Shown here in pieces: positions 4,013-59,929 of a stretch of 64,000 nt of DNA. The notes under the pieces were generated by a model. That model saw only the letters and a list, made by a program, of their open reading frames with translations, did no database searches and had not been told where the DNA came from. Position 1 is the first letter of the stretch; each line of letters starts with the position of its first letter. The position numbers and the translations under genes were made by a program. Source of the DNA: Lachnospiraceae bacterium (GTDB lineage: Bacteria > Bacillota > Clostridia > Lachnospirales > Lachnospiraceae); the NCBI GenBank assembly GCA_024694965.1, contig JAILJC010000212.1, positions 1 to 64,000 on the forward strand, given 5' to 3'.

Positions 4013-4879
4013 TCAAACTGCCGTCTTTCTTACCGCGCCCGGAGTTACGCCCTTATATTTCCTGAACATCCTTATGAAATGGCTCTGGTCCGCATACCCC
4101 AGTTCCTGCCCGATGTCATTTAATGACCGGTCCGTGAACTTAAGCATCTCCTCCGCCTTTTCAACCCTTAACGATTCCAGATGCTCCTTGCATGACCTGC
4201 CGTACATCTCCTTGAAACTCCTTGCGAAATGCGAATAGCTCATATTACATCTCTTCGCAAGATCATCTACCCTCAGATCCTCATCCAGATGAAGATCTAT
4301 ATATTCAGTTATATTCTGAAGGGACAGTTCTTCCCTGGTGATAAAGTCCGATACATTGTTAAAATCGATCCCTTCATCCTGCCACAGCCTTATAAGCTTC
4401 GTCATAAGAAGGCACAGCTTAGCATGGACTGCCACGTCGAACCCAATCTCTTTCCTGTCAAGCTCTTCCCTGCAGAATTCAAAAAAGCTTCCGTGTTCAT
4501 GGATCTCATCTCCGCCCGGAAAGAACACCCTGGCGTTCTGCTTTCGCGCCACGGCAAGCAATGTGCGCAGCCCCGGCGTATAATTTGTATTTACAGCCAA
4601 CCTTGATATGTCGAATTTGATCCCGGCAAACCTCGCGCTCCTCATGCTGCTCGCGGACATGGAATGCAGTACATTACTAAAGAACAGGATCATATCCCCT
4701 TCTTCAAGATAATATTCCTCTTCTCCGGCTGTCACGAACATGTTTCCCTCTGTCATGCATAAGATCTCGACATACGGATGAAAATGAGGCCTTACGGGAA
4801 AATCATTCACCGCCGTGTCAAATACAAATGATTCGTACGGAGTGTTCAATATATCACTGTATTCATACAGATAATTCAT
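4013..4879 (-). CDS. AraC-family transcriptional regulator
   Basis: This 288-residue regulator has an N-terminal cupin-like sensor (PHFHPYVEILCMTEG, then YYLEEGDMILFFSN) and a C-terminal double helix-turn-helix (about residues 185-285, including LAKRCNMSYSHFARSFKEM and a second helix around GYADQSHFIRMFRKY). An AGGAAGG ribosome-binding site precedes the ATG. It is divergent from the MATE/GH113 pair and probably controls it; the cupin domain suggests a sugar or similar small ligand. That target is inferred from position alone. Confidence 0.92.
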   Translation of the reverse strand: MNYLYEYSDILNTPYESFVFDTAVNDFPVRPHFHPYVEILCMTEGNMFVTAGEEEYYLEEGDMILFFSNVLHSMSASSMRSARFAGIKFDISRLAVNTNYTPGLRTLLAVARKQNARVFFPGGDEIHEHGSFFEFCREELDRKEIGFDVAVHAKLCLLMTKLIRLWQDEGIDFNNVSDFITREELSLQNITEYIDLHLDEDLRVDDLAKRCNMSYSHFARSFKEMYGRSCKEHLESLRVEKAEEMLKFTDRSLNDIGQELGYADQSHFIRMFRKYKGVTPGAVRKTAV

Positions 4880-4911
4880 GCGAAACCTTCCTGCTCCGGA
4901 TCAAACAAAAA

Positions 4912-4973
4912 ATTCTATATAGATATACCTATTTTACAGCATTTATTATATAAATGATAGATTTATTCTATAT
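4912..4973. promoter_or_regulatory. AT-rich divergent control region with direct repeat
   Basis: The space between the AraC gene and the MATE gene is strongly AT-rich and contains ATTCTATAT twice (4912-4920 and 4965-4973, 53 bases apart). Such repeats could be AraC half-sites. No convincing -35/-10 pair could be fixed here. Confidence 0.3.
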
Positions 4974-5065
4974 TTTGATTGATTCTTTATATCATTCACC
5001 GGGATATAGGATTACACTCTTTTCACAACTATCTTATATCAGTATCTGAGATGGAGGTGATGGAT

Positions 5066-6508
5066 ATGAACAGAAGATTTGTAAAAGATATGACAACAGG
5101 TGACGAGTTTAAGCTTCTCATAGGCTTTTCTGTTCCGATGCTCATCGGCAATCTGTTCCAGCAGGTTTATAACATGGTGGATTCGATCGTCGTCGGCAAG
5201 TACGTAGGGGCCGATTCCCTTGCGGCAGTGGGAGCTACGGGATCTCTTAATTTCCTGTTCTTTTCATTATGCATAGGTCTGTCGGGAGGTATCGGCGTTG
5301 TGATATCACAGCATTTCGGAGCCGGGGATGAGACCAATGTACGCAAGACCATCTTTAATTCAATATATATAATAGCGACCGCGGGACTTGTGATGTCCCT
5401 GCTCGGAGTGTGTTTTGCAAGGCCCATACTTACATGGCTCCGCACTCCTGCCAATATACTTGATGATGCCACCGCTTATATGCAGATAGTAAGCGGCGGG
5501 CTGCTCGCAGTGGCTGCCTATAACTGTATTTCTTCTATATTAAGGGCGCTCGGTGATTCCAGGACCCCGCTTTTCTTCCTTATATTCGCCAGCCTTGTGA
5601 ACGTTATCCTCGATCTTGTGCTCGTTATCTTCTTCGGACTCGGAGTAAGGGGCGTCGCCTATGCCACGATAACAGCCCAGGTACTCTCAGCCGCGGGAAG
5701 CCTGGCTTTTGCAATAAAAAAGAACCCGTATTTCTTAATATCACGGGACGAGATGCACTATGATACCGGGATAGCGTCGAAGTGTTACCGCCTGGGTCTG
5801 CCTCTTGCATTGCAGTCATCACTCATCGCGATATCATGCGTGGCCTTACAGAGCGTTGTAAATACCTTCGGTTCGACCGTGGTCGCTGCGTTCACCGCGA
5901 CTTCCCGTATAGAGCAGCTGGTCCAGCAGCCCTTTAACTCGCTCGGAATGGCGTTATCGACCTTTACCGGCCAGAATATGGGAGCGGGCAAGCTTGACAG
6001 GGTCAAAAGAGCATTTGCAAAGTCAGTCCTTGTAGTTTCGTGTTTCAGCCTTCTCATGCTTGCAGTGTTCCATGTTTTCGGAAACGGGATAATGAAGATC
6101 TTCGTATCTGAGCCGTCAGTCATAGAGTTCGGAACACAGGCTCTTAAGATAACCTCGTGGTTTTACCTGTTTCTTGGTATGATATATATTGTAAGGGGCC
6201 TGTTAAACGGTGCCGGGGATGCTGTTTATTCAATGATAAACGGATGCGTCGAGGTATTCGGACGTATAGTTTTTTCCAATACTCTTGTGCTTATACCTTC
6301 TGTCGGCAAATGGGGTGTATGGCTCGCGACCGCGCTTACATGGTGTATAACCGGTATAGCAAGCCTTATAAGGTTTAAGCAGGGTAAATGGAAGACTATA
6401 AGGGTAGTTGACCGGAAGGAAAAGGAGAGATCATGGAATACATCAAAGGAATCACATACGGAGCCTTCGCAGGAGCCGGTTCTTTTGCGAAAAAGCAGGC
6501 TTATTTAA
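5066..6508 (+). CDS. MATE-family efflux transporter
   Basis: Polytopic membrane transporter of the MATE family with about 12 membrane segments in two similar halves (for example FSVPMLIGNLFQQVYNMVDS, family-typical near the N-terminus, and GLPLALQSSLIAIS opening the second half). It exports organic cations or drugs using an ion gradient; the substrate is unknown. I choose the ATG at 5066 because GGAGG at 5053-5057 lies 8 bases upstream; the frame is open further up to 4979. The hydrophilic tail after the last membrane helix reads 76 bases into the next gene. The neighbouring AraC gene is a probable regulator. Confidence 0.92.
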   Translation: MNRRFVKDMTTGDEFKLLIGFSVPMLIGNLFQQVYNMVDSIVVGKYVGADSLAAVGATGSLNFLFFSLCIGLSGGIGVVISQHFGAGDETNVRKTIFNSIYIIATAGLVMSLLGVCFARPILTWLRTPANILDDATAYMQIVSGGLLAVAAYNCISSILRALGDSRTPLFFLIFASLVNVILDLVLVIFFGLGVRGVAYATITAQVLSAAGSLAFAIKKNPYFLISRDEMHYDTGIASKCYRLGLPLALQSSLIAISCVALQSVVNTFGSTVVAAFTATSRIEQLVQQPFNSLGMALSTFTGQNMGAGKLDRVKRAFAKSVLVVSCFSLLMLAVFHVFGNGIMKIFVSEPSVIEFGTQALKITSWFYLFLGMIYIVRGLLNGAGDAVYSMINGCVEVFGRIVFSNTLVLIPSVGKWGVWLATALTWCITGIASLIRFKQGKWKTIRVVDRKEKERSWNTSKESHTEPSQEPVLLRKSRLI

Positions 6509-7389
6509 GTCTTGATAAACTGATCGAATGCACGGGAGCCAACTATATAGTACTTGTACCGAACGGCTTGCAGGATACTCCCCAGTCTCAGGAGATAGAC
6601 TATACATCTCCCGCGAGTCTTAAGGATGACGAGCTTAAAAAGATGATCGGTCATATCAAGTCGCGCGGATTAAAGGTTGCTCTCAAACCTACGGTCAACT
6701 GTAAGAACGGTACCTGGCGGGCTCATATCTGCTTTTTTGACAGGGATGTTCCCTGTGAGCCGAAATGGTCGGTATGGTTTAAGGCGTATACGGACTTCCA
6801 GCTGCATTACGCGCGTCTGGCTGAAGAAACGGATGTTGATATGTTCATTGCCGGCTGTGAAATGGTGCAGTCAGAGCACAGAGAAGATGAATGGCGTAAA
6901 GTCATTTCAGATATAAGGGAAGTCTACAGCGGACCCGTTACCTATAATACCGATAAATATCAGGAAGATAATGTGAACTGGTGGGACTGCGTGGACATGA
7001 TATGCTCAAGCGGATACTATCCCGTAAATGACTGGGATACCCAGCTTGACCGGATAGAAAAAGTTGTAAAGAAATTCGATAAGCCCTTCTTCTTTGCCGA
7101 GGCAGGCTGCAAATCAACCAAAGGTTCCATGTACCTGCCTAATGACTGGACACTCAGGGGCGATGCAGCTCCCGATGAACAGGCATTGTGGTATGATACC
7201 ATGTTCAGGGCCTGTGATAAACGTGATTTTGTTAACGGTTTCTTCCTGTGGGACTGGAGCTTAAAGCTCTATTCCCACAGGGAAGCCTCCCTTGATAAAG
7301 GGTACGACATCTACGGAAAACCTGCAGAGCAGGTCATCCGCGATCATTATATGTCTATTCCCAGAAAAGCTCATCCAGAGTCTTGTTGA
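6433..7389 (+). CDS. Glycoside hydrolase, GH113-like (beta-mannanase type)
   Basis: A 318-residue TIM-barrel protein resembling GH113 beta-1,4-mannanases. The likely acid/base Glu143 lies in FIAGCEM and the likely nucleophile Glu223 in FFFAEAG; both follow strand-like stretches as in clan GH-A. There is no signal peptide, so it should act in the cytoplasm on imported oligosaccharides. Its ATG is preceded by AAGGAGAG and lies inside the end of the MATE gene in another frame, so the two are co-transcribed and probably translationally coupled. Its 3' end overlaps the convergent XRE gene by 35 bases. Family assignment is from motif memory; the substrate is unproven. Confidence 0.75.
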   Translation: MEYIKGITYGAFAGAGSFAKKQAYLSLDKLIECTGANYIVLVPNGLQDTPQSQEIDYTSPASLKDDELKKMIGHIKSRGLKVALKPTVNCKNGTWRAHICFFDRDVPCEPKWSVWFKAYTDFQLHYARLAEETDVDMFIAGCEMVQSEHREDEWRKVISDIREVYSGPVTYNTDKYQEDNVNWWDCVDMICSSGYYPVNDWDTQLDRIEKVVKKFDKPFFFAEAGCKSTKGSMYLPNDWTLRGDAAPDEQALWYDTMFRACDKRDFVNGFFLWDWSLKLYSHREASLDKGYDIYGKPAEQVIRDHYMSIPRKAHPESC

Positions 7390-27297: not shown

Positions 27298-28713
27298 TCA
27301 GTCAAAATAGATGATGTCCCTGGCAAGGCCGTTCTCATCCTCGTGTCCGTAACCGAACGGGATCGCACAGATATGCCAGCCCGTCATGCGGTAACCCGTA
27401 CGCCAGCCTATCTCATAATCGGTATCGGTGACCGCATCGGCATATATGACAAATACCGTTTCCATGTCCGATGCCATTTCCTGTACTATCTGGCACTCAT
27501 CACTGTAATCGTTGCGGATGAAATCCTTAACCAGAAGACATTCTTCGTATATATCATTATAGTAATACAGGTTATTCCTGTTGTCTCCTTCGCCCATATA
27601 TGCAACATACGGCTGATGGGGTGAATAGAATATCGAATTTCCGGTATCGAAACAGAGCTTCGGGACTTCGCCTTCCGGCCCTTCCGAGTATTCCCTTTCC
27701 TCCTCATAGGTGTCCATGCCGTCCGTAACCTCAGTAAGGCTTCCCTCTGTTCCGGGTGTGGCCTTTATGGTTTTCCAGTCGGCCAGGAAATGTCCCGTTC
27801 CCTCATAATACCCTACACATAAATATATATCACCGTCCATGTTTTTTAACTGCTTCGGCTCCGGATTGCTTCCCTGCGGAGTGCCCATAGATCCGAGCTC
27901 GGTGACTTTTCCGCTTCCGTCGACCGAACACAATATGAATTCATCGTAACCCTTATGCAGAATTGTGATAAGGTCTTCGCCCGCAAATCCCACATATTCA
28001 TAATAAAGATCTTCTCCGCCGAGGCTTACTATATCATTACCGTCCTTTAAAAGGACCATATTTATATTCTCTCCGCCGTACCTTTCAACTGCAAGCAGTT
28101 CACCGCTCTTTGATATTCCGCGCGGCATGCCTTTGCAGTATACTTCTGACTTACCGGTTGCAGGATCATAAAACTCTGTACAGTAGCTGTCAAGGCTGTC
28201 AGGCCTCATCTCACCGATATAGAAGCCCTTGGGAGATGCATACAGCTCACCTACTCCGGTTATCTTTCCGACTTCCTCCCATTCACAGGTATTAAGATCA
28301 TAGCATATGAGCGGACACTCGACGGGATTCCATTCCGTACTTAAAAACTCGCCGAAGGTCGCTCCCTCTTCCATTGCCTCCGGTGATATGTTCCTGAAGT
28401 AAACCTTGTCTCCTATAGTTACAAAATATGTTCCGTTATTGCTTACCGCATTATTCTTAAATGCTTCTGCAAAGTCATACGCTTTTGACTCATTCTTATC
28501 AATGTCTGTTTCGGCTTCCTCTTCTTCCCATTTTATTGCCTCTTCCTGCTCCTGTCCTTCCTGCTTTGATCCTTCATTGTCAAGCTGCTCCTGCGCATTT
28601 GAGTTTACCGTTTCAAGTTTATCCTTAAGTCCTGAATCTTTTTTCCCGCCGCACCCCGTAAGAAGAATGCAGCACAGTATACCTGCCATGATCCTTACAA
28701 ATGATCTTTTCAT
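27298..28713 (-). CDS. Uncharacterised lipoprotein, beta-propeller-like
   Basis: A 471-residue exported lipoprotein: signal peptide ending in the lipobox LLTGC, then an acidic Glu/Asp/Gln-rich linker (about residues 30-80). The rest is made of repeated short beta-strand units (FVTIGDKVYFRN, LICYDLNTCEWEEVGK, FYIGEMRPDSLD, NMVLLKDGNDIVSLGG, GDIYLCVGYY) reminiscent of a DUF5050- or propeller-type fold. AAGGA precedes the ATG. It follows the DltX-like microprotein by 47 bases, so it may be part of the acylation operon, perhaps as an outer-face accessory. No enzyme motif recognised. Confidence 0.75.
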   Translation of the reverse strand: MKRSFVRIMAGILCCILLTGCGGKKDSGLKDKLETVNSNAQEQLDNEGSKQEGQEQEEAIKWEEEEAETDIDKNESKAYDFAEAFKNNAVSNNGTYFVTIGDKVYFRNISPEAMEEGATFGEFLSTEWNPVECPLICYDLNTCEWEEVGKITGVGELYASPKGFYIGEMRPDSLDSYCTEFYDPATGKSEVYCKGMPRGISKSGELLAVERYGGENINMVLLKDGNDIVSLGGEDLYYEYVGFAGEDLITILHKGYDEFILCSVDGSGKVTELGSMGTPQGSNPEPKQLKNMDGDIYLCVGYYEGTGHFLADWKTIKATPGTEGSLTEVTDGMDTYEEEREYSEGPEGEVPKLCFDTGNSIFYSPHQPYVAYMGEGDNRNNLYYYNDIYEECLLVKDFIRNDYSDECQIVQEMASDMETVFVIYADAVTDTDYEIGWRTGYRMTGWHICAIPFGYGHEDENGLARDIIYFD

Positions 28714-28760: not shown

Positions 28761-28883
28761 TTAAAAACCCTGGTACAGGATCGTTAAGTTGGAAGCCTGA
28801 AAAACGGCATAGATCACGACAGCCGCTTTAAATCCCATCCATACTATCTTTAAAATGTCTTTAATGTCAAACCTCTCATCCAT
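28761..28883 (-). CDS. DltX-like 40-residue membrane microprotein
   Basis: A short gene read directly from the sequence: ATG at 28883, stop TAA at 28763-28761, AGGGG ribosome-binding site about 8 bases upstream. The product starts MDERFDIKDILK, has one hydrophobic helix (about residues 13-29) and ends in LTILYQGF. DltX of teichoic-acid D-alanylation is likewise about 50 residues, has one helix and a C-terminal FxYxxF-type motif whose Tyr carries the acyl group between DltB and DltD. Here Ile replaces the first Phe. It sits directly downstream of the MBOAT gene, where such a partner is expected. The MBOAT of this cluster lacks the motif. Function is inferred. Confidence 0.72.
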   Translation of the reverse strand: MDERFDIKDILKIVWMGFKAAVVIYAVFQASNLTILYQGF

Positions 28884-28921
28884 TCTGTTTTCCCCTGTTT
28901 AAAATTCCGTTTTATCTTAAA

Positions 28922-30136
28922 CTATCGACCCGTAAAAAGCGACATCACAGGATACCCGGTAAAAGTGAATGTTAGGCAGATATACCCCCATGTCACGATA
29001 CGTGCAACGGTAATGACCACCGGATTATTTTCATACTTTTTGTTCTTTTCTTTACCGAGCCATTTTTTTCTTTTCGTTTTCCAAAGCGTCGCCACTACTA
29101 TACCAAGTCCCTGAAAAAGACCGTACATGACGTAATCCATGGTCGTTCCGTGCCAGATACCGGCAACCAGAAAAGTAACAAACAGCGAGATACACTGAGC
29201 AAGCAGGATCTTCTTTTTTAAAGGCACCGAGAGGAGCCATTTGTAAAACGGGGTAAAGATATAATCCCTGATCCATTCGGATAAGGTTATATGATGCCTG
29301 TTCCAGAACTCCACTACGTTTACCGACATATAAGGACGGTTGAAGTTTTCATGTATCTTCATTCCGGAAAGTCCTGCCGCACCTATGACGATATCACAAT
29401 AACCCGAAAAATTAAAATAAATATACCAGCAATTGAAAAATGCAAAAATACAAAATGCACCGGCGGCTTTTAAAAACCCGTCATGGTCTTTTAATCCGTC
29501 AAACCAGTATTTAGCCCACGAATCCAGGATGGCGGATATCACATAAACCTTAACATATCCGTTTATCACCCTGTTAATATCATCCAGTAATTCCTTTTTT
29601 GTTATCGGTATAAAACCTGTTTCTTCCCCGCTTCCGTAAAAGTCATCAACGAATTCCCTGTATCTTAATATCGGGCCTGCCATCAGGGTATAAAAATCCA
29701 ATATATAGTTCAGGTAATCGATACAGCCGAGGGAATATCCTTCTTCCTTAAGGCTTTTATACTGCATGATGTAGTCGATCTCCCTGAACAGAAAATACGA
29801 AAGCCCGAGGATCTTAAACAGGAATATCTCCGGAAGGTGTAACAGCGAGAAAACAAAACCGTATTTTGCAAGATACACATAGATGACAACTATGCCTGCG
29901 ATCATAAACGGCTTAAGCTTCTCCCTGCTGCCCCAAAAGTGCATCAGCAAATACGGCAGCATTACCCAGATGACAGTGATCACCCACTGCAGGAGTGAAT
30001 GGGAGGCAGCCGTAATGACCAATACATTAAGTGCAAGAAACACTGTCTTCCTTAAACGTGATCTGTATCTTAAAAGAAACGGAGCTACAATGATAAGGCA
30101 TGCGAAAAACAAGGATTTTGTCGACAATTCGATCAT
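28922..30136 (-). CDS. MBOAT-family O-acyltransferase (DltB-like), cluster 1
   Basis: A 404-residue polytopic membrane O-acyltransferase. The family His residues are visible in NRHHITLSEWIRDYIFTP and in the invariant AGIWHGTTMDY. In Dlt-type systems this channel passes an acyl group from a carrier protein thioester in the cytoplasm to the outer face. It begins 1 base after the carrier-protein stop, with an AGGGA ribosome-binding site inside the end of that gene. Unlike the MBOAT at 58502, its C-terminus (SLFTGR) has no FxYxxF motif; the separate microprotein downstream seems to provide it. The acyl group and the acceptor polymer are unknown. Confidence 0.92.
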   Translation of the reverse strand: MIELSTKSLFFACLIIVAPFLLRYRSRLRKTVFLALNVLVITAASHSLLQWVITVIWVMLPYLLMHFWGSREKLKPFMIAGIVVIYVYLAKYGFVFSLLHLPEIFLFKILGLSYFLFREIDYIMQYKSLKEEGYSLGCIDYLNYILDFYTLMAGPILRYREFVDDFYGSGEETGFIPITKKELLDDINRVINGYVKVYVISAILDSWAKYWFDGLKDHDGFLKAAGAFCIFAFFNCWYIYFNFSGYCDIVIGAAGLSGMKIHENFNRPYMSVNVVEFWNRHHITLSEWIRDYIFTPFYKWLLSVPLKKKILLAQCISLFVTFLVAGIWHGTTMDYVMYGLFQGLGIVVATLWKTKRKKWLGKEKNKKYENNPVVITVARIVTWGYICLTFTFTGYPVMSLFTGR

Positions 30137-30137
30137 T

Positions 30138-30377
30138 TTATTTTCCCTGGATCTTATTATCGATCAGCTTGATAAAGTCACCGATGTTCTTTAAGGTATT
30201 TGTTTCCGCGATGGAAAACTTTATATCAAACTCATCCTGAACAGCTACGATAAGTACCACATGTGTAAGGGAATCCCATCCTTCAATGTCGTCCGCCGTT
30301 GTCTCATTGCTTATAACTATATCCTCATCATCAAACACATCCCTAAAAACTTCCTGTAATCTTTCCAGCGTACTCAT
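30138..30377 (-). CDS. Acyl carrier protein, cluster 1
   Basis: A 79-residue carrier protein with the phosphopantetheine site GWDSLTHVVLI (Ser36). Its acidic helical character is normal. The start is fixed by GGAGG 7 bases upstream and overlaps the end of the SGNH gene by 35 bases. It should carry the acyl group handed to the MBOAT encoded 1 base downstream. No adenylating or acyl-ACP ligase gene is in this cluster, so the loading enzyme must be elsewhere; the nearest candidate is at 54515. Confidence 0.93.
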   Translation of the reverse strand: MSTLERLQEVFRDVFDDEDIVISNETTADDIEGWDSLTHVVLIVAVQDEFDIKFSIAETNTLKNIGDFIKLIDNKIQGK

Positions 30378-31437
30378 TTATATCCTCCATAATCCTGTTT
30401 GTATATCTTATCCCCGCATCATATCCTAAATGTACTCCGTCTGCATATTCATTCTGCGCATAATCATCCCGGTAATCCACATATACGATCCCGTTTTCAT
30501 CAAGGAACGGTATCAGCCTGTTATCCACATAATCCTTATATGCATGTCCAAAGTCCGTGTTTCCCAGGTTTGGCGGCATGGGAGACAGTTCAACGATAAG
30601 ATGGCAGTTTTTATCTATATCCTTTATAAGGCCTTCCGTTATATCCTTCATGTCATCCGCTATATCAAGAGTTTCGGCTTCAGCCTCCGGACTGAAATAA
30701 TTATTCCTGAAATTTCCCGGGATCTTCAGATCGTCATAATTCCCGTTCATTTCAATCCCAAACTGTGCCGCTCTTTCGGTAAGACCGGTACCGTGGCTGC
30801 CTTTTAATACCTGATCCATATAATCCATAAAAAGCTCCCGGACATTCTGGATCCTTATAAGGTAAGTATTAAACGCATAAAGCGGGGCCAGTATCTTCGG
30901 CCCTTTTCTGATATCGATCCTGTTTTGTTCCCCTTCTTCATCCAAAACCTTGTATTTGCCCCATTTATCAAGGATCGTTTCGGTAATGGTGATCGATGGG
31001 TTCCGAAAAGTGGAAAAAGATATCTCCAGTTTGATGATATCCTCATCCCCTATAAGATCTTCCCCTGACAGCAGTTTAAACAATATCTGATCCGACCTGT
31101 AACATCCGTTCCCGCATGTCATAAAACGATAGGAGTAAGAATCATCATTCCCGGCGATCTCACCATGAAACGGAACAACACATACCGAAGAACCTATGGA
31201 TATCACACTTCTTTCATCCTTTTTGATCCTTGACATTTCTTCGATAAAACGGTTGTCTACAATATGATATCCCTCATCATACCACGGAGACGAAATACCG
31301 GTTGCATTTTCCCTGTATAGTTTTAGATAATCGGTGTTTAATCGATCTGTCAGATATATGGATAACTGTCCTGCCAGAATTATAAATAAGACGGCCAGCC
31401 CCAAAACCGCCGCAACTGCCGCAAATACTCTCTTCAT
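30343..31437 (-). CDS. SGNH-hydrolase-like membrane-anchored protein (DltD position), cluster 1
   Basis: One N-terminal signal-anchor helix (about residues 3-25) followed by an extracellular domain. The block I nucleophile is in SVISIGSSVCVV and the block V Asp/His in YADGVHLGYDAG, as in SGNH/GDSL enzymes and DltD-like transferases. It probably completes acyl transfer to the outer polymer or edits it. I start it at the ATG at 31437; a GTG at 31491 would add 18 residues that do not look like a signal. The ribosome-binding site is weak. First gene of the cluster 1 operon. Confidence 0.82.
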   Translation of the reverse strand: MKRVFAAVAAVLGLAVLFIILAGQLSIYLTDRLNTDYLKLYRENATGISSPWYDEGYHIVDNRFIEEMSRIKKDERSVISIGSSVCVVPFHGEIAGNDDSYSYRFMTCGNGCYRSDQILFKLLSGEDLIGDEDIIKLEISFSTFRNPSITITETILDKWGKYKVLDEEGEQNRIDIRKGPKILAPLYAFNTYLIRIQNVRELFMDYMDQVLKGSHGTGLTERAAQFGIEMNGNYDDLKIPGNFRNNYFSPEAEAETLDIADDMKDITEGLIKDIDKNCHLIVELSPMPPNLGNTDFGHAYKDYVDNRLIPFLDENGIVYVDYRDDYAQNEYADGVHLGYDAGIRYTNRIMEDINEYAGKITGSF

Positions 31438-31502: not shown

Positions 31503-31591
31503 ACCATTAGTTATTTTATCATGAATTTATTAAGCGGTGAATCCCTTAATTCTTCTAATTGTAGATTGAATTCTACGCTGTAGAGTGGCTT

Positions 31592-54514: not shown

Positions 54515-56056
54515 ATGACAAACATACTTGATATGCTCGAAAGAGCGGCAGATAAATACGGTGATAAGACGGCATATTCGGATCCGGATAAGGAAATAAG
54601 CTTTTCGGATCTTATGCTAAGTGCAAGGCGCACGGCATCCTGTATGCTTAAAAAAGCTGATGGGCAGGCATTCGGGCCGGGGACTGCGGTGGCGTTTTAC
54701 ATGGAAAAGAGTGTTGATGCGCTTATCGTTATGTTTGCTTCCATGTACCTTGGTTCATTTTATAGTTTTATCGATATAAGACAGACCAAAAACCGGGCCG
54801 AGAGCATATTATCGGTACTCGATCCGGTATTTATAATAACCGATGATGCAAACAGTGAGGCTTTAAATGCTTTTGAATTAAGCTCTGATACAGAAAGCCG
54901 TATCCTTAACATCGGTAAGCTTCTTAAGGAAGCAGGGGAAACCGGGGTTGATGAAGATGCGCTTTTGAAACGAAGGAGCGGTTTTTTTGATAAGATGCCT
55001 CTGTATGTGAATTTTACAAGCGGCAGCACGGGAGTTCCCAAGGGTGTTGTAGTGGGACATGCATCGGTTATCGGGTTTATTAGTGAGTTTACTTCGGTGT
55101 TTGGCATAACAAGCGAGGATGTAATCGCAAATCAGGCGCCGTTTGACTTTGACGTATCCGTTAAGGACATATACAGCGGCCTTTATACGGGAGCAAGGAC
55201 AGCGCTTATACCGAGGGAATATTTCTCAAATCCGTCTGTTTTAATGGATTATCTTGCGGATAACAGGGTCACGACCCTTATCTGGGCAGTATCGGCCATG
55301 TGCTTTGTATCGATAATGAACGGACTTGAATACAAAACGCCGGATACGGTCAAAAGAGTTATGTTCTCAGGGGAACTCATGCCTGTAAAACAACTTAATA
55401 AATGGAGGAAATTTATTCCCGATGCCATGTACGTCAATTTGTACGGGCCTACCGAGATAACTTGCAACTGCACTTATCATATATTAAACCGGGAATATGA
55501 AAAGGATGAAGTGATCCCGATCGGGATACCGTTTAAGAATGAGAAGGTTTTCCTGCTTGATGAAAATGACAATAAGGTAGAATCACCCGGAACCGAAGGA
55601 GAAATATGTGTATCGGGTTCCTGTCTGGCACTCGGTTATTATAAGGAACCGGAAAAAACGGCGGAGGTTTTTGTCCAGAATCCTTTAAATACAAGGTTTA
55701 TCGAGCAGATCTATAGGACCGGAGATCTTGGAAAATACGGAGAAGACGGCCTTCTGTATTATACCTCCCGTAAGGATTTCCAGATAAAGCATATGGGACA
55801 GCGGATAGAGCTTAATGATATCGATGTTTCCGCCATGTCTGTAGACGGAGTTTCAAGGGCTGTCAGTATATATGACGACAAACGTAAGAAGATAATCCTG
55901 TTTTATACAGGGGAAACTGATAAGGATGTTCTGGCTGAAAGCCTTCATAAGAAGCTTCCACCGTTCATGCTCCCGTCAAAGACAGTAAAGCTAGAGGAAA
56001 TGCCGCTTAACAAGAACGGAAAAATAGACAGAAAAGCTCTGGAAGGGCTTAAATAG
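54515..56056 (+). CDS. DltA-like amino-acid adenylating enzyme, cluster 2
   Basis: A 513-residue adenylation enzyme of the DltA/NRPS type that activates an amino acid with ATP and loads it on a carrier protein. Motifs: A3 NFTSGSTGVPKGVVVGH, A4 APFDFDVSVKDIY, A5 NLYGPTEIT, A7 YRTGDLGKYGEDG, A10 NKNGKIDRKAL with the catalytic Lys. It resembles D-alanine ligases, but the region where DltA keeps a D-Ala-selective Cys (in WAVSAMCFVSIMN here) seems to differ, so the substrate may not be D-Ala. That alignment is from memory. First gene of a three-gene set with a PLP decarboxylase and a carrier protein. Confidence 0.88.
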   Translation: MTNILDMLERAADKYGDKTAYSDPDKEISFSDLMLSARRTASCMLKKADGQAFGPGTAVAFYMEKSVDALIVMFASMYLGSFYSFIDIRQTKNRAESILSVLDPVFIITDDANSEALNAFELSSDTESRILNIGKLLKEAGETGVDEDALLKRRSGFFDKMPLYVNFTSGSTGVPKGVVVGHASVIGFISEFTSVFGITSEDVIANQAPFDFDVSVKDIYSGLYTGARTALIPREYFSNPSVLMDYLADNRVTTLIWAVSAMCFVSIMNGLEYKTPDTVKRVMFSGELMPVKQLNKWRKFIPDAMYVNLYGPTEITCNCTYHILNREYEKDEVIPIGIPFKNEKVFLLDENDNKVESPGTEGEICVSGSCLALGYYKEPEKTAEVFVQNPLNTRFIEQIYRTGDLGKYGEDGLLYYTSRKDFQIKHMGQRIELNDIDVSAMSVDGVSRAVSIYDDKRKKIILFYTGETDKDVLAESLHKKLPPFMLPSKTVKLEEMPLNKNGKIDRKALEGLK

Positions 56057-56087: not shown

Positions 56088-57281
56088 ATGATCGAAGAAG
56101 CGCTTAAAAACATAATAAAAGAATATCCAACCCCTCTGTTTCTGTTTGATGCGGATGAATTAAGAAGCAGGGCGTTTAAGATTAAGGAAATACTTAATGC
56201 AAACGGAAATAAAACAGGACTTTGCTATTCCATAAAGGCAAATCCGTTCTTAATCCCGCAGCTTACGGATGTGGTGGATAAGTTCGAGGTATGTTCGCCT
56301 GGAGAGCTTTCAATCTGCATGTCATACAATGTAAAGTCGGAAATGATCATCTATTCGGGAGTGCATAAGGAAGAGGAAGATATAACCGAGGCAGTAAAAT
56401 TCGGAGTAGGTATACTTACGGCAGAGTCTGTACGGCATTACGGATTGATCGATAAGGTAGCCAAAAAGCTTGAAAAAAAGGTAAATATAATTCTTAGGTT
56501 ATCGTCAAAAAGCCAGTTTGGCATGTCGATCGATGATATCCGGCAAATTCTTAAGGAAAATGCAGGCAATAAATACGTAAATATCGAAGGTCTCCACTAT
56601 TTTGCGGGAACACAGCGTGTAAAGCTTAAGCACCAGAGGGAAGAACTTATGATGCTTAAGGATGTTTTTTCCGGGTTACGGGAGGAATTCGGCATGGAAT
56701 TACGTTTGTTCGAATACGGCCCGGGCCTTGCATTTCCTTATTTTACGGACGAAGACAGGAGCGATACGCTTAAACCCCTTAAGGAGCTCGCCGATGATCT
56801 TTATACGGCAGCAGGCTTCAGCTCCCTTACCGTTGAAATGGGGCGTTTCCTGGCAAGCAGCTGCGGATACTATCTAACAGGGGTGTGTGATGTTAAAAGA
56901 TCGCATGACAATATCTGGTGCATCCTTGACGGAGGGATTAATCACCTTAATTACCTCGGACAAATGATGGGAATGAAAACACCTGTTATAATAACACTTC
57001 CGAATAAGGACAGCACTGAATTAAATAACACCTTTGGATTGGCGGAAAATCAGACCTTGTGTGGATCCTTGTGCACGACCAACGATGTTATTTTAAGAAG
57101 TTTTAAAGACAGGCGCCTTGAGAGCGGAGACGTCCTTGTATTTTGCAATACAGGTGCTTATACCATAACCGAAGGACTGAATCTTTTCTTAAGCAGGAAC
57201 ATGCCGGTTGTCCTTATTAAAAGAGATGGTATAATATCAAAGGTAAGGGATGTTACCCCGACCTGGAAACTTAATTCCTAG
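56088..57281 (+). CDS. Fold-type III PLP decarboxylase (LysA/ODC superfamily), cluster 2
   Basis: A 397-residue PLP enzyme of the diaminopimelate/ornithine decarboxylase group. The PLP Lys is in CYSIKANP; other family points are CSPGELSICMS, EGLHYFAGTQR (HxGSQ position), EMGRFLASSCGYYL (phosphate/R motif), the active-site Cys in LCGSLCTTND and NTGAYTITEGLNLF. The dltA-like gene is 31 bases upstream and the carrier protein gene 14 bases downstream. In butirosin biosynthesis the related BtrK decarboxylates glutamate bound to carrier BtrI; a similar on-carrier decarboxylation is inferred here. It is not likely to be the housekeeping LysA, given this company. Confidence 0.85.
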   Translation: MIEEALKNIIKEYPTPLFLFDADELRSRAFKIKEILNANGNKTGLCYSIKANPFLIPQLTDVVDKFEVCSPGELSICMSYNVKSEMIIYSGVHKEEEDITEAVKFGVGILTAESVRHYGLIDKVAKKLEKKVNIILRLSSKSQFGMSIDDIRQILKENAGNKYVNIEGLHYFAGTQRVKLKHQREELMMLKDVFSGLREEFGMELRLFEYGPGLAFPYFTDEDRSDTLKPLKELADDLYTAAGFSSLTVEMGRFLASSCGYYLTGVCDVKRSHDNIWCILDGGINHLNYLGQMMGMKTPVIITLPNKDSTELNNTFGLAENQTLCGSLCTTNDVILRSFKDRRLESGDVLVFCNTGAYTITEGLNLFLSRNMPVVLIKRDGIISKVRDVTPTWKLNS

Positions 57282-57295
57282 GAGGAATACGTATT

Positions 57296-57517
57296 ATGGA
57301 AGAATTACTGGAATTACTTAAAGATGTAAGGGACGATGTTGATTTTGAGAATGCGCAGGATCTTATAGACGGTAAGATATTGAGCTCTTTTGATATAATA
57401 CAGATCATAAGCGTGATCGATGAGGAGTATGACGTTGCAGTTCCTGCAACGGAGATAATCCCTGCTAACTTCAACAGCGCAAAGGCCATCTATGATATGA
57501 TACAGAGGCTTAAATAG
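57296..57517 (+). CDS. DltC-like acyl carrier protein, cluster 2
   Basis: A 73-residue carrier protein with the phosphopantetheine site in KILSSFDIIQII (probably Ser31, aligned with the Ser of DltC LDSF). AGGAGG precedes the ATG. It should receive the aminoacyl group from the adenylating enzyme encoded two genes upstream and present it to the MBOAT encoded on the other strand. It differs from the cluster 1 carrier (DSL type), so the two systems may use different acyl groups. Confidence 0.88.
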   Translation: MEELLELLKDVRDDVDFENAQDLIDGKILSSFDIIQIISVIDEEYDVAVPATEIIPANFNSAKAIYDMIQRLK

Positions 57518-58501: not shown

Positions 58502-59929
58502 TCAGAATGCCTGGTACATGAAATTTGACTGACCCGCGACCCCAAACAGGGCCATTACAACGAGCATTCCCGTAGCATACAGGTATCTGTGCCGGGAAAA
58601 GGCGTTTTCATTTTTTTCTTTTAACAGTTCAACAATGAACAGTACCGTCATCAGCACGGTGAGTATGATAACGGAGGCCGCAGCCTGATTTCCGTTCCCA
58701 AAGGGTGTAAGTGAAGCCATTATTGAACCGCCGTTTATCTTTGTTGTTGTGAAGATACGCTTATATATCATAAACGCATCGGAAAGACTGTGTGCCCTAA
58801 ACATCACTTCGCCGAGCAGCACGATTAAGAAAGTCCGTATTGTCGTAAATATCTTTATAAACACGTTATCATCATTCCAGTGTATCGCTTTTTTGAGTTT
58901 CTTCATATATGACATTGAACAAACGGAGAAAAGCATGATGATCGCAAAATAAACACCCCAGCCGATATATACATCTTCAGCTCCGTGCCAGATACCGGTG
59001 ATTATCCATACAAGGATAAGAGGAAATACCGTACGGAGGTTACCCTTTTTGGCTTTGGGAAAGATCTTTCCGAGGAACTTGGAAGCTTTTCTGTTCCAGC
59101 CTGATGTTACGGCCGGCATCATAAGGTGCTCTTTGAACCATTCGTTAAGGGAGATATGCCATCTTCTCCAGTATTCCTGAATATTCCTTGAAAAATACGG
59201 GCGCTTGAAGTTTTCGGTAAGCTTTATACCGAGCATGTAGGAAATACCGCAGACTATATCCATATAACCCGAAAAATCGGCATAAAGCTCGATCGCATAG
59301 AAAAACACTGCGATAATTAAGGTAAGTCCCGCATAATTTCCGGGTGAAGAAAATACGGTATCTACATAATAGGTAAGCCGGCCGGCTATTACGAGCTTTT
59401 TGAAAAGACCCTTTATTACCCTGTAACCGCCTGATTTTATATTGTTAAGATCAAAAGCGTGAGGAGATAAAAGCTGATCCTTCATGTTACCGTATGTACC
59501 GATGGGGCCCTGTGTTATCTGGGGAAAGTAGGAGATAAAAAGGGCATAATGCAGCAGGTTTTTCTCCGGTTCGATCTTTTTTCCCATACAGTCATGCGCA
59601 TATCCCAGTGTCATAAATGTGTAAAAGGAAATGCCCAGAGGCACGATCAGCGAATGTATATTGAAATAAATGCTGTACCTGAAAACGATAAGTATACCGA
59701 GGTTTATGATAAGAGTCAGTATCCACCGGACCTTTGAGGGTTTAAGCATCAGGTACCAGGTGGAGACAATGGATACTGCTATAAACACTATATAAACGGG
59801 GCGGACCCAGGCATAGAAAACAATACTGCCAAGAAGCAGCACCATCCATTGGTATTCCGGTTTCACCCTGTAATAAACAATGAGCAGAATGATTATAAAT
59901 ATAAGGAAAGAAATTGAAATAAGGCTCAT
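58502..59929 (-). CDS. MBOAT-family acyltransferase with C-terminal FxYxxF motif, cluster 2
   Basis: A 475-residue polytopic O-acyltransferase (DltB/AlgI-like). Family His residues are in RRWHISLNEWFKEHL and ITGIWHGAED. After a last membrane helix (LYATGMLVVMALFGVAG) the protein ends exactly in NFMYQAF, i.e. the FxYxxF motif that in DltX carries the acyl group and that also ends many AlgI-type MBOATs. So the acceptor segment that is a separate microprotein in cluster 1 is fused here. AAGGA precedes the ATG, and a consensus-like promoter lies upstream. Confidence 0.93.
   Translation of the reverse strand: MSLISISFLIFIIILLIVYYRVKPEYQWMVLLLGSIVFYAWVRPVYIVFIAVSIVSTWYLMLKPSKVRWILTLIINLGILIVFRYSIYFNIHSLIVPLGISFYTFMTLGYAHDCMGKKIEPEKNLLHYALFISYFPQITQGPIGTYGNMKDQLLSPHAFDLNNIKSGGYRVIKGLFKKLVIAGRLTYYVDTVFSSPGNYAGLTLIIAVFFYAIELYADFSGYMDIVCGISYMLGIKLTENFKRPYFSRNIQEYWRRWHISLNEWFKEHLMMPAVTSGWNRKASKFLGKIFPKAKKGNLRTVFPLILVWIITGIWHGAEDVYIGWGVYFAIIMLFSVCSMSYMKKLKKAIHWNDDNVFIKIFTTIRTFLIVLLGEVMFRAHSLSDAFMIYKRIFTTTKINGGSIMASLTPFGNGNQAAASVIILTVLMTVLFIVELLKEKNENAFSRHRYLYATGMLVVMALFGVAGQSNFMYQAF

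Follow-up and report, generated by a model that had tools for sequence, protein, structure and literature searches.

A conserved 40-residue membrane microprotein encoded behind a DltB-like MBOAT in Lachnospiraceae is a candidate DltX-type acyl shuttle

Genes and features of the cluster 1 locus

We analysed a stretch of 64,000 nucleotides (the window) from the genome of a Lachnospiraceae bacterium (assembly GCA_024694965.1, contig JAILJC010000212.1; genome G000 below). It holds two MBOAT loci, here called cluster 1 and cluster 2. The features of cluster 1 are as follows:

28761..28883 (stop included), minus strand: putative DltX-like acyl-shuttle microprotein, 40 aa; ORF and C-terminus kept in 19/19 loci, with low dN and high or saturated dS
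28891..28896, minus strand: Shine-Dalgarno-like AGGGGA, 7 nt 5' of the microprotein ATG, read from the sequence
28800..28856, minus strand: predicted single transmembrane segment (residues 10-28 of the microprotein) from hydropathy, probably N-in/C-out
28764..28781, minus strand: C-terminal hexapeptide ILYQGF of the microprotein; the codon of Tyr37, the proposed acyl carrier, is at 28773-28775; L, Y, Q and the final F are invariant in 19/19
28922..30136, minus strand: DltB-like MBOAT, 404 aa, without a C-terminal motif of its own; candidate catalytic His281/His282 and His329; its profile matches DltB structures
30138..30377, minus strand: acyl carrier protein (ACP) by PF00550, 79 aa, assigned to the FkbH type by similarity to ACPs beside FkbH in relatives
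30343..31437, minus strand: membrane-anchored SGNH transferase with a DltD-like fold; the ORF extends to 31491 from a GTG, and the ATG at 31437 is the likely start
31513..31541, minus strand: promoter-like site 5' of the operon, a consensus match alone in a region where such matches are near shuffled expectation

The short gene with a ribosome-binding site that the original prediction had placed right after the cluster 1 MBOAT is present at 28761-28883 (minus strand), and its translation gives the 40-aa product MDERFDIKDILKIVWMGFKAAVVIYAVFQASNLTILYQGF. It starts 38 nt after the MBOAT stop, and a scan of the window sequence found no terminator-like site between the two genes. An orthologue in another assembly of the same genus (G017, buffalo rumen) has GGAGGAA at the position equivalent to AGGGGA. 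The product has the one membrane helix claimed for it, as a single hydrophobic segment with a mean Kyte-Doolittle value of 1.93. All of its charges lie N-terminal to the helix or within the first half of it and the C-terminus is uncharged; the microprotein would thus be oriented N-in/C-out, with an extracytoplasmic C-terminus. The window has 410 ORFs of 30-80 aa, and the microprotein ORF is the only one of them with a YxxF ending.

The MBOAT ends in GYPVMSLFTGR, so that the missing Tyr hexapeptide noted in the original prediction was confirmed. A profile of this MBOAT matched only DltB in the PDB (8jem, 6bug; E about 5e-38), and its score against the DltB equivalog model TIGR04091 was 182.7 bits, below the cut-off of 375. 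In the SGNH protein, the GSS and D-x-x-H motifs were invariant in an alignment of 7 sequences. Its predicted model (pLDDT 75.6) had DltD of E. faecium as best PDB match (6pfx, E 6e-4, with a modest TM of 0.36), while by sequence profile the match to DltD was not significant (hhalign probability 1%) and the SGNH profile had no match in the PDB. Directly 3' of the microprotein lies a gene for a 471-aa lipoprotein (27298-28713) with weak matches to EF0163-family and CshA-repeat models; we dropped it as a further component of the operon, a different gene occupying that place in G017.

Conservation and distribution of the microprotein

The reading frame and terminal YxxF, whose conservation in relatives had been set beforehand as the check on this gene, were kept in all loci. 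After removal of duplicates, a short ORF was found 3' of the cluster 1-type MBOAT in each of the 19 distinct genomes with that MBOAT, spanning four Lachnospiraceae genera, and in 19/19 its product ended in T-[IV]-L-Y-Q-[GS]-F. Counted from the C-terminus, the invariant positions (n=19) were A(-15), F(-13), T(-7), L(-5), Y(-4), Q(-3) and F(-1). The 40-mer of G017 is 83% identical and in the equivalent place; in three other genera, where the MBOATs are 49-58% identical, the ORF was present at all loci, and a further search of two of these genera yielded it at 14/14 loci (G420 and G1055 among them being repeats). Window and G017 microproteins differ by 19 synonymous and 8 nonsynonymous changes (24 and 96 sites), and between loci dN was 0.05-0.63 with dS high or saturated. 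On this comparative evidence the ORF is a real conserved gene.

Gene and MBOAT type occur together, and both are rare. Searched with a microprotein profile (E<1e-16), 397 Lachnospiraceae genomes yielded exactly the five that have the cluster 1 MBOAT type. In a sample of 391 genomes of the class, the window's own genome was the only one with this MBOAT type; the type was further found in 2/25 genomes of a first genus sample, and in 4/4 and 12/48 genomes of two other genera. Weaker profile matches (E above 5e-4) in other Lachnospiraceae were taken as noise, none of the three inspected (L106, L107, L110) being a candidate. Residue 19 in the helix (position -22; window 28827-28829) carries a charge whose sign depends on the clade, one having Lys and the other Glu, which suggests a charge partner in a helix of the MBOAT or SGNH protein.

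The gene order of the operon in 15/19 genomes is SGNH, FkbH, ACP, MBOAT, microprotein, in most cases with a nucleotidyltransferase-like gene next in line. The remaining operons, those of the window, G017, G1075 and G1084, have no FkbH; in G405, a single protein combines FkbH and ACP, its sequence being read across a masked stretch of N. The two FkbH proteins tested scored well over the TIGR01686 cut-off. Locus L058 has two ORFs of 185-187 aa between FkbH and ACP (4499-5667), and a short stretch containing TCATTCTGAGCGAAGCGAAGAATCT between MBOAT and microprotein (7200-7330).

Comparison with DltX

The acyl shuttle was reportedly first described by Schultz, Snow and Walker in 2023. In PatA the acyl group is borne by the Tyr of a C-terminal hexapeptide, and in D-alanylation by that Tyr on a microprotein of its own, DltX, which also keeps DltB and DltD together (PMC12148441); dltX was often overlooked in annotation (PMC5541007). 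Like DltX, as described for the dltXABCD operon in B. thuringiensis (PMC5541007) and S. aureus (PMC12148441), the microprotein falls in the range of 40-50 aa, has one membrane helix and a C-terminal hexapeptide, probably extracytoplasmic, whose Tyr and final Phe do not vary, and is partnered with an MBOAT of the DltB type and an SGNH protein of the DltD type. Unlike dltX, its gene lies 3' of the MBOAT and not 5' of dltA, no DltA is found near 13 of the microprotein operons, the carrier is not of the DltC type, and in most relatives FkbH is part of the operon.

No sequence homology between the two could be detected. None of 7 microproteins scanned matched Pfam DltX (PF12459), scans of the 40 aa with Pfam, NCBIfam and PHROGs gave nothing useful, and an hhalign comparison with DltX aligned the last seven residues without reaching significance. 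A profile of canonical DltX yielded no DltX over the cut-off in the window's genome, the sole match lying inside the MBOAT gene. Canonical DltX tails (FIYNDF, FIYNQF, FIYNGF, FIYDGF, YIYNAF) read [FY]-I-Y-x-x-F. Against the F-x-Y-x-x-F motif, the microprotein keeps the Tyr and last Phe in 19/19, but has Ile or Val in place of the first Phe in 19/19; its motif is [IV]LYQ[GS]F where DltX has [FY]xYxxF. At the level of sequence, the name "DltX-like" given in the original prediction is true of architecture and motif and did not hold for detectable homology. Convergence and divergence beyond detection are both compatible with the data.

In function the microprotein most likely works like DltX, given the published acyl-Tyr role of the hexapeptide together with the matches of its MBOAT to DltB and of its SGNH protein to DltD. 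The lack of detectable homology to Pfam DltX, the Ile/Val at the first position of the hexapeptide and the weak SGNH-DltD match are points against a DltX-type shuttle. A joined AF2 model of MBOAT and microprotein from in-frame loci, with TAA read as Gly as a stand-in for the complex, was uninformative (pLDDT 45.6).

Split and fused forms of the tyrosine motif

The window's genome has 11 MBOATs, of which that of cluster 1 alone lacks an F-x-Y-x-x-F ending. The other 10/10 end in FIYFKF, FIYFRF, FIYFQF, FIYSQF, FLYQRF, FLYFRF, FVYANF, FIYGAF, FMYQAF and FIYGRF, FMYQAF being the ending of the cluster 2 MBOAT whose resemblance to ILYQGF had been pointed out; both endings are in the sequence as claimed. 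The cluster 2 genes are:

54515-56056, plus strand: DltA-like ligase
56088-57281, plus strand: PLP-dependent decarboxylase-like gene
57296..57514, plus strand: DltC-type carrier protein, 44% identical (E 1.5e-19) to the ACP beside a DltA-like ligase on C57
57527..58462, minus strand: partner adjoining the MBOAT, SGNH-like by a GSS motif in its sequence, with no Pfam match
58502..59929, minus strand: MBOAT with the fused motif FMYQAF

The ligase, decarboxylase and carrier genes are transcribed towards those of the fused MBOAT and its partner. Identity between the cluster 2 MBOAT and the cluster 1-type MBOAT of G420 is only about 26%. As with PatA, cluster 2 and the nine other fused-motif MBOATs of the genome share with cluster 1 the C-terminal Tyr hexapeptide and the pairing of MBOAT and SGNH protein; they differ from it in that the motif sits on the MBOAT itself, after two extra helices, and not on a microprotein. 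PatA in addition uses acetyl-CoA, unlike cluster 1 with its carrier protein.

That the two loci show split and fused forms of the same part, as had been proposed, is supported with qualifications. The proposal agrees with the fused motif of all ten other MBOATs and its absence from that of cluster 1. After the DltB core, fused MBOATs carry two helices (PMC12148441) where the microprotein provides one, and the microprotein is thus more than a severed MBOAT tail; the carriers and the ligase also differ between the loci, and cluster 2 is no mere fused counterpart of cluster 1. By this helix count the MBOAT core would end on the outer face of the membrane and the microprotein begin on the inner one, a possible reason for the part having stayed separate. 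Since cluster 1 has an FkbH-type carrier and cluster 2 a DltA-like ligase with a DltC-type carrier, their cargos probably differ.

Elsewhere in the genome, L065 6680-11071 (G000:C57) encodes a DltA-like ligase, a DltC-like ACP, a fused MBOAT (FIYGAF) and an SGNH-like protein in one operon; by this gene content, the genome apparently has a further pathway in which a fused MBOAT depends on a carrier. Fused MBOAT pathways have been stated to have no carrier protein (PMC12148441); cluster 2 looks like an exception to that statement.

Carrier protein and probable cargo

FkbH makes glyceryl-ACP (PMC7489565). The window ACP is 60-69% identical to the ACPs beside operon FkbH genes in relatives; with FkbH-linked ACPs from its own genus it shares about 50% identity, and against DltC its matches had E 0.08 or worse. 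No DltA-like gene was found in the stretches of 9-26 kb read around 13 of the microprotein operons. In the window's genome, FkbH lies elsewhere:

G000:C22, L064 3908-5937: FkbH and ACP genes in tandem, beside housekeeping genes, with no evident downstream glyceryl user nearby

Given FkbH in the operon of 15/19 genomes, no DltA found with the operon, an FkbH-ACP pair elsewhere in the window's genome, and an ACP of the FkbH and not the DltC type, we take the cargo to be probably not D-alanine but glyceryl, which FkbH would make from 1,3-bisphosphoglycerate. The window operon could possibly be supplied with glyceryl in trans by the C22 FkbH. Of 26 genomes in the genus, 24 have this FkbH and nearly all of these lack cluster 1; it is therefore not specific to this operon, and a link to cluster 1 by co-occurrence was not supported on the same ground. 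Another FkbH-type ACP is encoded at L127 (G000:C219), about 3 kb from an AMP-dependent ligase-like gene on the same contig.

As in the FkbH/ACP modules of polyketide and tetronate clusters (Mad7/Mad8 of tetromadurin, PMC7489565), an FkbH-domain enzyme adjoins a standalone ACP in these operons. In those modules, glyceryl enters a polyketide, whereas here the neighbours are genes of a membrane acyl-export relay. In the open-access literature we found nothing relevant tying FkbH to an MBOAT, to polymer acylation or to capsule, an absence that is weak evidence of novelty.

Proposed mechanism and alternative explanations

We propose, with a probability of roughly 0.78, that the gene encodes a translated single-pass membrane microprotein acting as a DltX-type Tyr acyl shuttle between the DltB-like MBOAT and the SGNH transferase. 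The ACP of the operon would be loaded in the cytoplasm, in the window's species by a loader acting from another contig. The MBOAT would take the acyl group off the phosphopantetheine arm of the ACP and, through its catalytic His, place it on Tyr37 of the extracytoplasmic ILYQGF. The acyl-Tyr would then swing to the membrane-anchored SGNH protein, meeting its Ser, and this protein would esterify an envelope polymer. We infer translation, topology, complex formation and all chemistry of this relay from the conserved gene, its strict pairing with the MBOAT, the invariant Tyr, the motif-less MBOAT and the operon context. The wider reading, a use of the split DltX design for something other than D-alanine, with FkbH-derived glyceryl passing from 1,3-bisphosphoglycerate to the ACP and through the acyl-Tyr relay of MBOAT, microprotein and SGNH protein to a surface polymer, we favour by only a little over even odds.

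The same relay could instead carry D-alanine or another amino acid, loaded by a DltA-like ligase encoded elsewhere (window 54515-56056 or C57). The MBOAT is closest to DltB and the SGNH protein to DltD, such ligases exist in the genome, and the window operon has no FkbH in cis. Both ligases, however, have DltC-type ACPs and fused MBOATs of their own nearby, the cluster 1 ACP is near the FkbH-partner ACPs and not DltC, the operon loader is FkbH in 15/19, and no ligase was found around the 13 operons; we consider this cargo unlikely. Somewhat less likely still is a structural or regulatory subunit that joins MBOAT and SGNH protein, its Tyr a docking residue that carries no acyl group. DltX too holds DltB and DltD together (PMC12148441), and the helix residues A(-15) and F(-13) vary no more than the Tyr does; against this, the Tyr occupies the place of the acylated residue of PatA and DltX, and the cluster 1 MBOAT is the only one of the genome without its own motif.

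The ORF might also be what is left of a fused MBOAT's tail after breakage or a frameshift, or a product of stop-codon readthrough, and no independent gene. At seven loci it shares the reading frame of the MBOAT, from which one or two TAA stops separate it. Across loci, however, the spacing ranges from overlap to more than 100 nt in all three frames, which rules out obligatory readthrough. Low dN, the ATG and Shine-Dalgarno sequence of the window ORF, its one helix against two in fused MBOATs (PMC12148441), and the awkward topology that a direct fusion of MBOAT and microprotein would probably have make this origin highly improbable, and we retain the DltX-type shuttle as the preferred reading.

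Significance

Microproteins of about 40 aa are easily overlooked, and a Tyr acyl shuttle on a microprotein has so far been described for D-alanylation only. The microprotein of cluster 1 has no detectable similarity to DltX and another carrier and loader, and by all indirect signs does the same job. A glyceryl relay, if true, would contradict the statement that MBOAT/SGNH pathways other than Dlt have no carrier protein or DltX-like microprotein (PMC12148441). If the cargo is glyceryl, central glycolysis would, in a way for which we found no description in the open-access literature, directly feed the modification of the cell surface.
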